Positions 36,585-41,150 of a DNA stretch of 64,000 nt are shown here, one piece after another. The stretch's first letter is position 1. Every line of letters starts with the position of its first letter. This stretch comes from Ensifer adhaerens. Its GTDB lineage: Bacteria > Pseudomonadota > Alphaproteobacteria > Rhizobiales > Rhizobiaceae. The notes beneath the pieces were generated by a model, which did no database searches, had not been told where the DNA came from, and worked only from the letters and a program-made list of their open reading frames with translations. The translations under genes were made by a program, and so were the position numbers. The stretch covers positions 124,001 through 188,000 of the forward strand of contig NZ_JABEKT010000001.1 in the NCBI RefSeq assembly GCF_013283195.1, written 5' to 3'.

Positions 36585-36614
36585 CTTGACGTAACGCCGG
36601 CTGGAACACTAAGG
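36585..36614 (+). promoter_or_regulatory. Promoter of the cobalamin-riboswitch operon
   Basis: CTTGAC at 36585-36590 and CTAAGG at 36609-36614, spaced 18 bases. The -35 is a perfect match to the rhizobial sigma-70 form; the -10 is partial. A start site near 36621 would coincide with the first stem of the riboswitch. Confidence 0.6.
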
Positions 36615-36620
36615 GTAGCG

Positions 36621-36840
36621 CCGACGGTTCCCCGAAGGATGACTCTAACGGGGATTAATAGGGAACACGGTGAGGACGACCCAATAGGGACCGAGACCGT
36701 GGCTGCCCCCGCAACTGTAAGCGGAATGCCGGACACCCAAGTGGCGCGACAGCGCGCCATGCCACTGCGATCGCGTCAGACGCGTTGCGGGAAGGCAGGT
36801 GGAAGGCGCTTGATCCGCGAGCCAGGAGACCTGCCGTCAA
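36621..36840 (+). promoter_or_regulatory. Cobalamin (B12) riboswitch
   Basis: A 5'-UTR aptamer binding adenosylcobalamin. Seen: P1 pairing between GACGG (36623-36627) and CCGTC (36834-36838), the diagnostic GGGAACACGGTGAGG-type segment (36659 onward), CCCCCGCAACTGTAAGCGG, the B12-box GCCACTG (36761-36767), GGGAAGGC and the terminal GAGCCAGGAGACCTGCC. It lies 190 bases upstream of the binding-protein gene, so it should reduce expression of the downstream transporter operon when B12 is plentiful. Confidence 0.96.
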
Positions 36841-36889
36841 GCAGAAGATCCAACGTCACGGGCGGGGTTGCCCGGAACAGGAGTTGTCC

Positions 36890-36997
36890 ATGATCCGCAT
36901 ACCCGGCGGCTTTGCGCCCTCTTTTCCCGTTCTTCTCGACGTTTGCGATCGTTTGTCTCCCGAAATCCGACCGGCCGGCTGTCGCCGCTTCGGCTGA
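36890..36997 (+). CDS. Possible 35-codon leader ORF after the riboswitch
   Basis: ATG at 36890 preceded by AGGAG with six bases spacing opens a 35-codon frame ending with TGA at 36995-36997. It lies between the riboswitch and the binding-protein gene. The peptide, starting MIRIPGGFAPSFPVLLDV, resembles no known family. A CGGGC/GCCCG hairpin at 36859-36874 lies just before its ribosome binding site. It could be the true target of riboswitch control, with coupling to the gene downstream, or simple chance. Confidence 0.35.
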   Translation: MIRIPGGFAPSFPVLLDVCDRLSPEIRPAGCRRFG

Positions 36998-37030
36998 CCC
37001 TTCGCAAGCTCACGAGAAGAGAGAATTCCC

Positions 37031-38074
37031 TTGAAAGCCATTTTCAATGCCGTCGGGCGCTATTGCCCATCCCTTGCCGTTTCCGTGTCCCTGCTCTTGA
37101 CCGTCGCTCCCACGACCGCTCTTGCGGCCGCGACGAGCTACCCCCTGACCTTAAAGAATTGCGGCCAGGAGGTTGCCTTTAAGGCGGCGCCGATGCGCAC
37201 CGCCTCGATCGGTCAGAGCACCACGGAAATTCTTTATCTTCTCGGCCTCGCCGACAAGGTCGTCGGCACCGCCGTATGGATCGGCCCTGTCATCGAGGGC
37301 TACGAGGAAGTCAACGGCAAGGTGCCGCGGCTTGCCGACAACGACCCGAGCTTCGAAAGCGTCGTTGCCACCAAGCCGGATCTCGTCACCGCGCAGTTCC
37401 AGTGGCATGTCGGGCCGGAAGGCATCGTCGCAACGCCGAAGCAATTCGCCGAACTGTCGATCCCCGTCTATGTCTCGCCGGCCGATTGCGCCGCCAAGGA
37501 CAATTCCGCCGGTGGCGACGGCGTACGTCACAAATCCTTCTCGATGGACCTGATCTACCAGGAGATATCAGAGCTTTCCGAGATCTTCGATGTGCAGGAT
37601 CGCGGCGAGGCCCTGATCGCCAAGCTGAAGGCGCGCGAGGAAGCCGCCCGCGGCAAGATCGCCAATGCCGACGGCAAGCTGTCGGCGGTCTTCTGGTTCT
37701 CCAGCGCCGAGATGGACATCGACCCCTATGTCGCCGGCACCAATGGCGCGCCCGGCTACATCCTGTCGGCGCTCGGCATCAAGAATGTCGTGTCCACCGA
37801 AGAGGAATGGCCGACCATCGGCTGGGAGACCATCGCCAAGGCCGACCCGAAGATCGTGGTCATCGGCAAGATGGATCGCCGCCGCTTCCCCGCCGACGAC
37901 TGGGAGCTGAAGATGAAGTTCCTGAAGTCCGACCCGGTCACCAGCCTGATGCCGGCGGTCAAGGCCGACCATATCGTCATCATGGACGCCCAGGCGATGA
38001 ACCCGACGATCCGCACGATCGAGGGCATCGAGGTGCTGGCCGACGCGGTCGAAAAAGCCGGCCTGGCGAAGTGA
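37031..38074 (+). CDS. Periplasmic binding protein of a B12/metal-chelate ABC transporter (BtuF/FepB family)
   Basis: A 347-residue solute-binding protein of the class III type (two lobes joined by a long helix). Start is TTG at 37031. Seen: a signal peptide (1-33) cleaved near TALAA, then MRTASIGQSTTEILYLLGLADKVVGTAVW, a lobe-linking helix region SMDLIYQEISELSEIFDVQDRGEAL, and LSALGIKNVVSTEEEWPTIGWETIAKADPKIVVIG. No lipobox Cys, so it should be freely periplasmic. The riboswitch control suggests a cobalamin or cobinamide substrate; sequence alone cannot exclude an iron siderophore. Its stop overlaps the permease start as GTGA. Confidence 0.85.
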   Translation: MKAIFNAVGRYCPSLAVSVSLLLTVAPTTALAAATSYPLTLKNCGQEVAFKAAPMRTASIGQSTTEILYLLGLADKVVGTAVWIGPVIEGYEEVNGKVPRLADNDPSFESVVATKPDLVTAQFQWHVGPEGIVATPKQFAELSIPVYVSPADCAAKDNSAGGDGVRHKSFSMDLIYQEISELSEIFDVQDRGEALIAKLKAREEAARGKIANADGKLSAVFWFSSAEMDIDPYVAGTNGAPGYILSALGIKNVVSTEEEWPTIGWETIAKADPKIVVIGKMDRRRFPADDWELKMKFLKSDPVTSLMPAVKADHIVIMDAQAMNPTIRTIEGIEVLADAVEKAGLAK

Positions 38075-39099
38075 GGTTTGGGCCTCTTTCGATCAACCGC
38101 ACGAGCGCCGTCCTGACGGCGCTCGCACTGCTTTTCCTGGCGCTCGCCCTTGGTGCCGCCATCGGCGAAACCGCCATCCCGCTCGACGTGGTCGGCAAGA
38201 CCGTCGCCAACCGGCTGTGGGGCGCCGGATACCCGCTCGATGCGATCGACGAGGGCATCGTCTGGAATTATCGCCTCAGCCGCGCTGTCGTGGCCGCCTG
38301 CTGCGGCGCGGCACTGTCGCTCTGCGGCGTCGTCCTGCAGGCGCTGCTGCGCAATTCCCTGGCCGATCCCTATATCCTCGGCATCTCCGCCGGCGCATCG
38401 ACTGGTGCCGTCGCCGTCGCCATTCTCGGCATCGGCGCAGGCATGCTGACGCTGTCGCTCGGCGCCTTCTTCGGCGCGGTCTTCGCCTTCGCGCTGGTCT
38501 CCCTCCTGGCACTCAGGGCCGGCCGCGGCACCGGCGCCATCATTCTGGCCGGCGTTGCCGGCTCGCAGCTCTTCAACGCGCTCACCTCCTTCATCGTCAC
38601 CAAATCAGCCAATGCCGAGCAGGCCCGCGGCATCATGTTCTGGCTGCTCGGCAACCTCTCGGGCGTGCGCTGGCCTGATGTGGCGCTGGCCTTGCCGGTG
38701 GCGATTGGCGGCCTGCTTGTCTGCCTCTGGCATGCCCGCGCGCTCGACGCCTTCACCTTCGGCGCCGAATCGGCCGCCTCGCTCGGCATCCCGGTCAAGC
38801 GGGTCTACATCATCCTGATTTCGGCAACCGCGCTGATGACGGCGGTCATGGTCAGCATCGTCGGCTCCATCGGCTTCGTCGGCCTCGTCATACCGCATGC
38901 CGCACGCTTCCTGGTCGGCGTGCGCCACGGCCTGCTGCTGCCGGCAGCAGCACTCACCGGAGCGATCTTCATGATCGCCGCCGACATCTTGTCGAGGGTC
39001 ATCATTCCCGGCCAGGTGCTACCGATCGGCGTGATCACGGCCCTCGTCGGCGCGCCGGCCTTCGCCCTCATCCTCAGTCGCGGCAGGGCCGCGTCATGA
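38071..39099 (+). CDS. FecCD/BtuC-type ABC transporter permease
   Basis: A 342-residue inner-membrane permease of the FecCD family with about ten hydrophobic helices. The start is GTG at 38071, overlapping the binding-protein stop (GTGA). Seen: VWNYRLSRAVVAACCGAALSLCGVVLQALLRNSLADPYILGISAGASTGAV, the family hallmark, LAGVAGSQLFNALTSFIV, and the ATPase-contact loop with GFVGLVIPHAARFLVG near the C-terminus. It homodimerises and pairs with the downstream ATPase for import. An ATGA overlap with the ATPase gene implies coupled translation. Confidence 0.93.
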   Translation: MRFGPLSINRTSAVLTALALLFLALALGAAIGETAIPLDVVGKTVANRLWGAGYPLDAIDEGIVWNYRLSRAVVAACCGAALSLCGVVLQALLRNSLADPYILGISAGASTGAVAVAILGIGAGMLTLSLGAFFGAVFAFALVSLLALRAGRGTGAIILAGVAGSQLFNALTSFIVTKSANAEQARGIMFWLLGNLSGVRWPDVALALPVAIGGLLVCLWHARALDAFTFGAESAASLGIPVKRVYIILISATALMTAVMVSIVGSIGFVGLVIPHAARFLVGVRHGLLLPAAALTGAIFMIAADILSRVIIPGQVLPIGVITALVGAPAFALILSRGRAAS

Positions 39100-39911
39100 G
39101 CCTCAAGGCCGAAACTGTCTCCTGGTCGGCCGGCGGCCGCGTGATCGTCGATGCCGTCGATCTCGAGGTGATGCCTGGAGAATTCCTCGGGATCATCGGT
39201 CCGAACGGATCCGGCAAGACCAGCCTGATCTCGCTGCTCGCCGGCATCCGCCTGCCGAAATCCGGCAGTGTCAGCCTCGAAGGGCGGCCGTTTGCCAAGA
39301 CGACGCGACGAGACATTGCTCAACGCATCGCGCTGGTCGAACAGCAGGCGGAAACCACCGAACGCATCACCGCCCGCCAGGCGGTCGAGCTTGGCCGCAC
39401 CCCGCATCTCGGCGCGCTTTCGCCCTGGTCGATCAGCGATACCGATATCGTCGACCGCGCGCTTGCGCATGTGGGCATGAGCGATTTTGCCGGCCGCATG
39501 TGGCACACACTCTCCGGCGGCGAACGCCAGCGATTGCACATCGCCCGGGCTCTCGCGCAACAGCCACAGATCCTGCTGCTCGACGAGCCGACCAATCACC
39601 TCGACATTCACCACCAGATCGGTCTGCTCGAGCTCGTGCGTGGGCAGCCGCTGACGGTCGTGGCCGCCCTGCACGATCTCAACCACGCCGCCGTCTTCTG
39701 TGATCGTATCGCCGTCATGGATCGCGGCCGCATCGTCGCGCTCGGCACCCCGACAGAGATCCTGACGGAAGACCGCATTTTCACTGTCTTCGGCGTCGCC
39801 GCGACGGTCGAGCACGACGAGGACGGCTCGTGCTTTGTGCGCTACCGGCGCCCGCGGCCGAAACTGCACCTGATATCCGACACCATGAAGAGACATGACT
39901 ATGCGCGCTAG
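39096..39911 (+). CDS. ABC transporter ATPase (BtuD/FepC type)
   Basis: A 271-residue ATPase energising the import system. Seen: Walker A GPNGSGKT (35-42), Q-loop around VEQQAETTERI, signature LSGGERQR (139-146), Walker B ILLLDEPTNHLD, and the switch His in ALHDLNHAA. The order after the FecCD permease is canonical. The C-terminal coding sequence overlaps the pseudoazurin start by 17 bases, in another frame, so the copper protein is translated on the same message. Confidence 0.94.
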   Translation: MSLKAETVSWSAGGRVIVDAVDLEVMPGEFLGIIGPNGSGKTSLISLLAGIRLPKSGSVSLEGRPFAKTTRRDIAQRIALVEQQAETTERITARQAVELGRTPHLGALSPWSISDTDIVDRALAHVGMSDFAGRMWHTLSGGERQRLHIARALAQQPQILLLDEPTNHLDIHHQIGLLELVRGQPLTVVAALHDLNHAAVFCDRIAVMDRGRIVALGTPTEILTEDRIFTVFGVAATVEHDEDGSCFVRYRRPRPKLHLISDTMKRHDYAR

Positions 39912-40347
39912 GATCGCCACCACGCTCATTGCCTTCGGGCTGACCACCGCTCCTGCCCTCGCCGAAACCATCGAGGTCAGGATGCTCAATCGCGGCGAAA
40001 ATGGCTCGATGGTGTTCGAGCCCGACTATGTCGAGCTGAAGCCCGGCGACAGCGTCAAGTTCCGCGTCGGCCACAAGAGCCACAACGCTGCCTCGATTGA
40101 CGGCATGGTTCCCGAGGACTATGCCGGCTTCAAGGGCCAGATCAATGAGATCGAGGTCACCTTCGACATGCCCGGCTTTTACGGCATCAAGTGCTCGCCG
40201 CATTTCGCCATGGGCATGGTGATGTTGATCAAGGTCGGCGAGGCAGACCTGACCGAGGCCTTCCGCAAGGCCGAAGTCCCCGGCCGAGCGCGCGGCCGTT
40301 TCGACGCGATCTTCGCCCGCATGGACCAGGCCAAGGCAGCGCAATGA
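39895..40347 (+). CDS. Pseudoazurin (blue copper protein)
   Basis: A 150-residue cupredoxin with a signal peptide (1-23, cleaved after ALA). Mature sequence begins ETIEVRMLNRGENGSMVFEPDYVELKPGD, the pseudoazurin N-terminus. Copper ligands are present: H63 in KSHN, C100 and H103 in KCSPHF, and M108 in MGM. Pseudoazurins usually carry electrons to nitrite or nitrous-oxide reductase in the periplasm. Here there is no denitrification gene nearby; it is instead embedded in a B12-riboswitch transporter operon, so its partner is unknown. An alternative start six bases later exists. Confidence 0.93.
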   Translation: MTMRARIATTLIAFGLTTAPALAETIEVRMLNRGENGSMVFEPDYVELKPGDSVKFRVGHKSHNAASIDGMVPEDYAGFKGQINEIEVTFDMPGFYGIKCSPHFAMGMVMLIKVGEADLTEAFRKAEVPGRARGRFDAIFARMDQAKAAQ

Positions 40348-41150
40348 ACCCAGCGGCTGAGGCAACCGGACCCAACCTTCGAAGAAATTTCGACCTCAAG
40401 GATGAGATCCGCGACTACTGGTCGAAGCGTTCCGAAACCTTCGACCTCGCTTTCGGCCACCGCATCCCGCCCGGCCCGGAATTTGCCGCCTGGCAAAAGC
40501 CGGTGCGCGACTTTCTCGGGGCCGAACCGCTGCGCGTGCTTGAACTTGCCTGCGGCACCGGCGAGGTGACGCGGCTGATCCACGACCTCGGCCACGACGT
40601 CACGGCGCTCGATTTCTCCGAGGCGATGCTTGCCGTCGCCCGGAAAAAGCACGCGGGCAAACCACGCCTGCGCTTCCTGCTTGCCGATGCGGAAAACACC
40701 ATGGAGCCGGACGAGCGCTATGACGCCATCGTCTGCCGCCATCTGGTCTGGACGTTGACCGAGCCGCAGGCGACGCTTGGCGAATGGTTCCGCTTGCTGA
40801 AGCCCGGCGGCAAGCTGCTGGTTTTTGACGGCGACTGGGCGAAGCCGACCGCGGTTGGGCGCTTGGCGACCTTTGCGATCCGCCAGATCGATCGGGTGAT
40901 CGGTCCCGACAATCACTACGACGTTGCGCTCAGCGATCGCCATGCAACGATCATGCAGAACCTGCCCTTCGGCGAAGGCCTCACCGTCGAGACGTTGCTG
41001 CCAATGCTGAAGGCTGCGGGCTTCCAGACCATCGAGCACGCATCCCATCAGCCGATCGCGGCCGCACAGCGTAAAACCGCAAACCTGCGCAACCGCCTGC
41101 GCACCTTCGTCTATCGCCGGTTCATTGTCTGCGCGCACAAGCCCGGCTGA
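40344..41150 (+). CDS. Class I SAM-dependent methyltransferase
   Basis: A 268-residue UbiE/Methyltransf_11-like enzyme. ATG at 40344 overlaps the pseudoazurin stop (ATGA). Seen: an N-terminal helical IRDYWSKRSETFDLAFGHRIPPGPEF, motif I VLELACGTGEVTRLI, motif II ALDFSEAMLAVARKKH, motif III AIVCRHLVWTLTEP and the post-motif LKPGGKLLVFDGDW, all expected for SAM binding. The C-terminal third contains conserved His and Arg residues (LSDRHATIMQN, HASHQPIAAAQRKT). The acceptor is unknown; its place as the last overlapping gene of the B12-regulated operon suggests action on the imported ligand or a small metal complex. Confidence 0.88.
   Translation: MNPAAEATGPNLRRNFDLKDEIRDYWSKRSETFDLAFGHRIPPGPEFAAWQKPVRDFLGAEPLRVLELACGTGEVTRLIHDLGHDVTALDFSEAMLAVARKKHAGKPRLRFLLADAENTMEPDERYDAIVCRHLVWTLTEPQATLGEWFRLLKPGGKLLVFDGDWAKPTAVGRLATFAIRQIDRVIGPDNHYDVALSDRHATIMQNLPFGEGLTVETLLPMLKAAGFQTIEHASHQPIAAAQRKTANLRNRLRTFVYRRFIVCAHKPG

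Follow-up and report, generated by a model that had tools for sequence, protein, structure and literature searches.

To our knowledge it is not settled how bacteria that make vitamin B12 admit cobalt when copper, nickel and zinc compete with it, and an operon of Ensifer adhaerens raises that question in a concrete form. The operon lies on the forward strand of a 64,000-nucleotide stretch of contig NZ_JABEKT010000001.1 (positions 124,001–188,000; hereafter the window, with coordinates counted from its first letter), part of a 7.07 Mb genome (G000 in our sample). It joins a cobalamin riboswitch to genes for an ATP-binding cassette (ABC) importer, the blue copper protein pseudoazurin and an S-adenosylmethionine (SAM)-dependent methyltransferase, and a preliminary description made from the letters alone had proposed that it takes up and chemically processes a corrinoid or metal complex. 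We think it probable that the operon encodes a cobalt importer of the CbtJKL type, with the pseudoazurin as a periplasmic helper and the methyltransferase working in the cytoplasm. Importers of this kind are known; in the literature that we searched we came upon neither the two partners nor their conservation. No report was found that brings together a cobalamin riboswitch, pseudoazurin, a methyltransferase and an ABC transporter (the primary CbtJKL paper may discuss the downstream gene), and the main text of a 255-genome survey of RNA regulons, with its supplements outside the search, contained no words beginning with azurin or methyltransferase (PMC3766115). A conserved blue copper partner gives the question of cobalt selectivity a concrete protein, and it cautions against taking a pseudoazurin gene as a sure sign of denitrification.

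Identity of the importer

Pfam and NCBIfam searches assigned the five genes, in order, to Peripla_BP_2, FecCD, ABC_tran, pseudoazurin and Methyltransf_11, and their coordinates (Table 1) agreed with the overlapping arrangement given in the preliminary description. The binding-protein and permease genes share GTGA, the permease and ATPase genes ATGA, and the pseudoazurin and methyltransferase genes again ATGA; the ATPase and pseudoazurin genes overlap by 17 or 11 bases, depending on whether the latter starts at 39895 or 39901. The riboswitch, described earlier as complete, matched RF00174 over its full length in an Rfam search (model positions 1–189 of 189, 110.4 bits against a gathering score of 31.5, E = 8.8e-27). 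Four other genomes of the genus (G003, G005, G013 and G015) carry the five genes in the same order at 87–98% identity, flanked as in the window by genes for a PhoD-like phosphatase and an amidase, and the order recurs in Rhodobacter capsulatus SB1003, where ATPase, pseudoazurin and methyltransferase genes again follow one another.

Table 1. Features of the operon and its leader, in window coordinates.
Feature	Position	Strand	Basis and remarks
Possible -35 box of the operon promoter, TTGACG	36586..36591	+	Kept in the window and 4 relatives
Cobalamin (B12) riboswitch aptamer	36608..36852	+	Rfam RF00174; highly conserved in 4 relatives
Short leader open reading frame, 35 codons	36890..36997	+	AGGAG ribosome site; directly 3′ of the riboswitch; possible expression platform
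Substrate-binding protein, very likely CbtJ ortholog	37031..38074	+	PF01497; 69% identical to the protein at the same position of S. meliloti 1021 pSymB
FecCD permease, very likely CbtK ortholog	38071..39099	+	PF01032; 79% identical to S. meliloti 1021; letter K assumed from gene order
ATPase, very likely CbtL ortholog	39096..39911	+	PF00005; 71% identical to S. meliloti 1021; letter L assumed from gene order
Pseudoazurin, Cbt-operon type	39901..40347 (alternative start 39895)	+	TIGR02375, four copper ligands, tree; apparent signal peptide (by eye)
Class I SAM-dependent methyltransferase, importer-associated family	40344..41150	+	PF08241; importers adjoin its relatives; no signal peptide (by eye)

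On the pSymB replicon of Sinorhizobium meliloti 1021, counterparts of the three importer proteins are encoded in the same order at 69–79% identity, followed by a methyltransferase (69%). On pSymB of S. meliloti ABS7, the ortholog lies at 70.6–73.5 kb behind one of the two B12 riboswitches that we found there, the other preceding an energy-coupling factor (ECF) permease. Excerpts of a published review place cbtJKL on pSymB, describe it as a B12 riboswitch–controlled Co(II) importer that was first mistaken for a cobalamin importer, and state that the S. meliloti cbt mutant needs added CoCl2 (PMC7689651); excerpts of two further papers likewise locate the cobalt importer CbtJKL on pSymB (PMC12239276, PMC4207669), and in these portions all three treat it as a three-gene importer. 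Because the pSymB ortholog, the riboswitch count and the published location agree, we read the window operon as cbtJKL plus two genes, its importer being, on the sequence comparison, very likely the ortholog of CbtJKL. The two systems share the B12 riboswitch, the order binding protein–FecCD permease–ATPase and, in strain 1021, the methyltransferase that follows; they differ in the pseudoazurin that the window has between ATPase and methyltransferase, none having been found behind cbtL in 1021.

An order-wide sample of 397 genomes yielded binding-protein relatives at E 1e-30 in 61, and among those fetched, a B12 riboswitch stood in the 1.5 kb stretch for 21 of 23 with at least 53% identity and for none of six at 46–48%; G086, whose importer lies downstream of nrdA and nrdB, and G298 had none in that stretch. 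A phylum-wide sample showed the riboswitch at eight loci of 52–68% identity (on the opposite strand at L236), no more than a partial match, barely over the gathering score, at L244 (49%), and none at L241 to L243 (49–50%) or at seven loci of 44–47%. The second binding protein of G359 (L251, 54%) had no riboswitch of its own.

A B12 riboswitch and a FecCD-type permease are also what one would expect of a BtuFCD-like corrinoid importer, in which case the pseudoazurin and methyltransferase would process corrinoids. This alternative gains from the finding that a BtuC-like permease of the L102 type (E 1e-60) was found in just 12 of 47 importer genomes, the others of which may lack such an importer. 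We nevertheless regard it as unlikely, given that the window importer is very likely orthologous to a published cobalt importer and that the window genome holds a BtuB-like receptor gene with ABC genes of its own under another riboswitch. Unlike BtuBFCD systems, with which it shares the riboswitch and the type of transporter, the window operon has no outer-membrane receptor gene, and its proteins stayed below the curated cut-offs: the permease reached 219 of 461 and 193 of 334 bits for BtuC and the ATPase 120.5 of 281 for BtuD, the corrinoid ATPase family PRK09536 was missed at 239 of 537 bits, and the binding protein gave no BtuF match in the curated family search. The receptor and binding protein of the BtuB-like operon themselves fell below the curated BtuB and BtuF cut-offs.

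The distribution of cobaltochelatase points the same way. CobN was found in all 47 genomes with the importer and in 15 of 20 without it (Fisher p = 0.0016, kinship ignored; the 20 were the first listed without a match at E 1e-30, and two of them, G200 and G408, are small, at 1.5–1.6 Mb), and cobW and cobN lie near the importer at L284 and L292 as well as at L256 and L257 in distant genomes. On the strength of the CbtJKL orthology and the CobN count we set corrinoid import aside; of the uptake of a corrinoid or metal complex first proposed, the metal is supported and the likeness to BtuFCD very likely gives way to CbtJKL.

The window genome as a whole contains nine B12 riboswitches, and the organism is probably a B12 producer with a distinct operon for corrinoid-type uptake. 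Apart from the window operon, the nearest genes behind them are those for the BtuB-like receptor with its FecCD-type ABC genes, for DUF1636 with another FecCD importer, and for CbtA; metE, nrdI/nrdE and bluB, recognized from their translations; a cobU/cobP-like gene (also from translation) with cobW and cobN; and a Rieske oxygenase with its reductase.

We also weighed, and consider very improbable, a reading in which the importer takes up a ferric siderophore and is regulated by B12 so as to supply iron for a B12-independent ribonucleotide reductase. An AlphaFold2 model of the binding protein (mean predicted local distance difference test score, pLDDT, 89.6) is predicted to be nearest to three uncharacterized proteins, 4mlz among them, and then to siderophore- and heme-binding proteins; nrdEF or nrdA/nrdB adjoin the operon at L069, L079 and L078; and cousins of the methyltransferase accompany ferrioxamine-type importers. 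Fold similarity is no proof of the ligand, however, and the cobalt phenotype published for the ortholog, together with the cobN, cobW, cobF or cobO genes nearby, speaks for cobalt. BtuF was absent from the 50 rows listed for the binding-protein model, an absence that carries no weight against any ligand. At L079 the B12-independent nrd genes diverge from the importer operon, and L050, which is that same place, shows two riboswitches.

Other labels for the importer fell away. Assignments to EitABC and to the F420-0 importer were rejected as below curated cut-offs (338 of 640 bits for EitA and 305 of 485 for EitC; 184 of 392, 274 of 437 and 299 of 372 for the F420-0 ABC importer), as was the notion that the importer replaces CbtA, another cobalt transporter, which occurs without pattern in 33 of 47 importer genomes and 12 of 15 CobN-bearing genomes without the importer. 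The binding protein matched 644 plasmid records, 188 of them from Escherichia, where the match is presumably EitA. Two loci (L073, 10485–11474; L271, 8286–9281) carry a second, diverged CbtJ-like binding protein 3′ of the methyltransferase.

The two genes behind the importer

The window pseudoazurin passed the NCBIfam cut-off for TIGR02375 (121.2 against 109.85 bits) and has all four copper ligands (His61, Cys98, His101 and Met106), as the preliminary description had noted; the four are kept in 28 of 28 pseudoazurins of Cbt operons, a sign from sequence that copper may still be bound there. A tree of 49 rows placed 28 of 29 operon pseudoazurins on one side of a branch with 97/92 support, together with three non-operon proteins (from Roseomonas mucosa, Martelella and a 1.1 Mb genome); the exception, from L089, belongs to a different importer type and joined three others (85/85), its branch being very long. 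A first, smaller tree had placed all operon copies and the copy of the genome G021 on one side of an unsupported branch (57/87). On these trees, pseudoazurin may have been recruited once, or separately by the window type and by L089. Between residues 25 and 133 the Cbt-operon proteins have 2–10 lysines (median 5, n = 28), against 10–15 (median 13) in 17 other pseudoazurins, the rows being related to one another; the window protein, with seven, is below the whole range of those 17, a yardstick of our own. The Ensifer rows among the 17 are taken to be of the SMc04047 kind, the S. meliloti pseudoazurin that is listed, in an excerpt of PMC6180224, in a cluster with sulfite oxidase. The window protein thus shares with the known pseudoazurin, an electron carrier of denitrification, the sequence family, the four ligands and an apparent secretion signal, and differs from it in grouping with Cbt-operon relatives, in having fewer lysines and in its gene context. 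The copy of G021 (L105, 6266–6706 of G021:C1) is a lone pseudoazurin in a 1.1 Mb genome of the same family, with a local GC content of 40%; it groups with the Cbt-operon branch, and a search of that genome for NosZ found none.

Pseudoazurin genes directly 3′ of the ATPase gene were found in Cbt operons of three orders of Alphaproteobacteria and of two Comamonadaceae, namely in Rhizobiaceae, families f28 and f41 of the same order, Rhodobacterales, Roseomonas marmotae and the two Comamonadaceae (among the loci compiled, L111 and L095 are probably one). A pseudoazurin beside Cbt-type ABC genes, a pairing akin to the riboswitch-controlled one that the preliminary description had proposed to look for, is found in both Alpha- and Betaproteobacteria, and the two extra genes, far from being neighbors in one strain only, are conserved partners across orders. 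Of 18 further Rhizobiaceae genomes that have a methyltransferase of the Cbt type (at least 61% identity), seven carry an intact pseudoazurin gene in the position between it and the ATPase, and one carries a remnant. A search of annotated plasmids led us to open 11 records, nine of which have a pseudoazurin behind the Cbt ATPase; the riboswitch stood upstream of the binding protein in all six of these nine operons that were searched for RNA families.

What follows the pseudoazurin varies. In Haematobacter it is cobF and a cob cluster (at L282 cobF follows directly), in Paracoccus yeei cobO, DUF1636, cobW and cobN, and in Cereibacter a methyltransferase fragment; P. kondratievae and P. alcaliphilus also have the pseudoazurin behind the ATPase. 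In Roseomonas marmotae a methyltransferase gene faces it. Of the two Betaproteobacteria, Comamonas antarctica has cobW and cobN upstream on the other strand, and Diaphorobacter has the same ATPase–pseudoazurin arrangement. The pseudoazurins of Roseomonas mucosa and Martelella had no such importer directly upstream. Two Comamonadaceae loci (L284, 8477–9808; L288, 8396–9736) encode, 3′ of the pseudoazurin, an OprD-family outer-membrane porin, a candidate outer-membrane route for cobalt.

The methyltransferase matched Methyltransf_11 (PF08241) at 83 bits against a cut-off of 21, and its AlphaFold2 model (pLDDT 92.9) predicts a class I enzyme with good confidence, in line with the SAM methyltransferase first described. 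The 50 entries listed by a fold comparison (Z 18.7–21.4) ranged widely over class I methyltransferases, those acting on small molecules and others, and pointed to no substrate, and the cut-off for the corrinoid protein-associated methyltransferase CpaM (NF043040) was missed at 70 of 180 bits. Its relatives keep company with importers. From a collection-wide search that kept 80 loci, the best nine (E 3e-46 or better) all adjoin a FecCD importer, three of the Cbt type (Ensifer adhaerens, Shinella and Rhizobium NFR07) and six with a YiuA/FhuP-like binding protein; the next matches are far weaker (9e-27 on), and among L120–L144 importer-like ATPases appear just at L127, L139 and L142. Importer genes lie within 1.5 kb at 17 of 18 Cbt-type loci (family-wide) and at 14 of the 15 sister-type loci given (family- and class-wide).

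These sister loci, in Bosea, Methylobacterium, Devosia, Thalassospira and others, belong to FhuP/YiuA-type ferric siderophore importers. They share the methyltransferase family (38–49% identity to the window protein) and differ in the family of the binding protein; the Bosea locus adds a siderophore-interacting protein, an esterase and a FoxA/FhuA-like receptor near the methyltransferase. L089 (G016:C12, 5906–10313) has a YiuA/FhuP-like importer, a siderophore-interacting protein nearby, and a pseudoazurin and methyltransferase in the same slot; it was the one sister-type locus searched for RNA families, and no B12 riboswitch was found in the stretch. Elsewhere in the window genome, a fragment of a methyltransferase N terminus (L194, 1495–1638 of G000:C14; 55% identical) is apparently the remnant of a second copy.

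Several observations weigh against the explanation that we prefer, a cobalt importer assisted by pseudoazurin and methyltransferase. That the pSymB operon is cbtJKL we infer from location and riboswitch, and the importer coexists with CbtA in most of its genomes, as counted above. Both extra genes are patchy: in the order-wide sample, where 22 of 24 operons (the window's included; G242 and G298 left out) were inspected in wide stretches, pseudoazurin is present in five (G000, G336, G064, G143 and G174), and seven are followed by a methyltransferase with identity above 60%, G401 having a 30% one. In S. meliloti 1021 cbtL is not followed by a pseudoazurin gene and the importer works by published report, S. 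medicae WSM419 likewise has importer and methyltransferase and no pseudoazurin, and S. fredii NGR234 has the pseudoazurin and no methyltransferase within 8 kb. Decayed pseudoazurin copies occur at L092 and L271 (genomes G033 and G856), and the methyltransferase match is split over two frames in ABS7 and broken into several pieces in two further S. meliloti records, which may reflect sequencing errors; in 1021 it is in one piece. Finally, because sister methyltransferases adjoin ferrioxamine- and iron-type importers, the extras may not be specific to cobalt. Since S. meliloti 1021 has the importer without it, the pseudoazurin is not obligatory; given the patchy presence, the S. meliloti, S. medicae and S. 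fredii variants and the decayed copies, both extras are optional and could at most modulate the pump, without belonging to it.

The same patchiness and decay, and the S. meliloti importer that reportedly works in a species lacking pseudoazurin, would be expected if the two genes were passengers of the operon with no role in import. We give this a small chance: the genes overlap and hold the same slot in Alpha- and Betaproteobacteria, the pseudoazurins form a branch of their own that has kept its copper site throughout, and importer genes adjoin the methyltransferase at nearly all Cbt-type and sister-type loci. A functional link of both proteins to cobalt uptake is supported by this conservation.

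Proposed roles of pseudoazurin and methyltransferase

In the mechanism that we propose, scarcity of adenosylcobalamin would lead the riboswitch to permit expression of the operon. In the periplasm CbtJ would bind free or chelated cobalt, which the permease and ATPase would then pump in for CobN and B12 synthesis. The pseudoazurin, presumably exported by its apparent signal peptide, would serve as a periplasmic helper of the importer, specialized away from respiratory electron transfer, and would most likely set the redox or copper state of the periplasm. It might do so by oxidizing a Co(II) chelate to the form taken by CbtJ, or by holding copper and so keeping it off the cobalt route; because the methionine and the other copper ligands are kept, we slightly favor such redox or copper-guarding roles over that of a Co(II) carrier. 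The methyltransferase, presumably cytoplasmic, would most likely act on the imported ligand or complex and thereby aid release of the metal. The FtrABCD ferrous-iron system provides an earlier case of metal uptake that involves a periplasmic cupredoxin, with an Ftr1 permease in place of an ABC importer. More broadly, and tentatively, one pseudoazurin branch may have given up respiratory electron transfer and come to assist, in the periplasm, the cobalt import that B12 regulates, and a family of methyltransferases linked to it may serve both cobalt and hydroxamate-siderophore importers, with redox chemistry outside the cell and modification inside, perhaps of a cobalt chelate.

A role that keeps the pseudoazurin in respiration is conceivable: at low B12 it could feed electrons to N2O reductase and thus shield B12 from nitrous oxide (N2O). 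According to excerpts of PMC8390676, copper deficiency in Paracoccus raises N2O and, by way of B12 riboswitches, replaces B12-dependent with B12-independent pathways; the same source names pseudoazurin as an electron carrier of denitrification. We find this hardly credible for the window operon. NosZ exceeded its cut-off in six of the 11 genomes whose operon pseudoazurin is intact (G000, G003, G004, G010, G013 and G336, as against G005, G015, G064, G143 and G174) and in six of nine same-genus genomes without one, and the operon pseudoazurins are lysine-poor beside the others. A link to NosZ was rejected for want of enrichment.

Leader sequences and other B12-controlled loci

A promoter upstream of the riboswitch, as the preliminary description had it, was borne out in part: a scan for the sigma-70 consensus upstream of the operon found none, and TTGACG, which we take to fit a rhizobial -35 box, is kept in the four relatives. 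The leader from this hexamer to the TTG start of the binding-protein gene, and that start itself, are conserved in the window and the four same-genus genomes. So, as read by eye, are the start, stop and length of the leader open reading frame, through which the riboswitch may act. An ACAGGA-like motif followed by a short open reading frame of other sequence occurs at four of seven further loci checked (L277, L112, L280 and L293), the bacteria with such a frame being Shinella and the Sinorhizobium strains S. meliloti 1021, S. fredii NGR234 and S. medicae.

Two other B12-controlled loci were noted in passing. The second FecCD importer of the window genome behind a B12 riboswitch (L101, 6921–10316 of G000:C1) comprises DUF1636, ATPase, binding protein and permease. 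The Rieske oxygenase and ferredoxin-type reductase behind a B12 riboswitch occur in two genomes (L104, 3304–5647; L268, 11200–13660, the latter pair recognized from translation), and presumably resemble glycine betaine demethylase.

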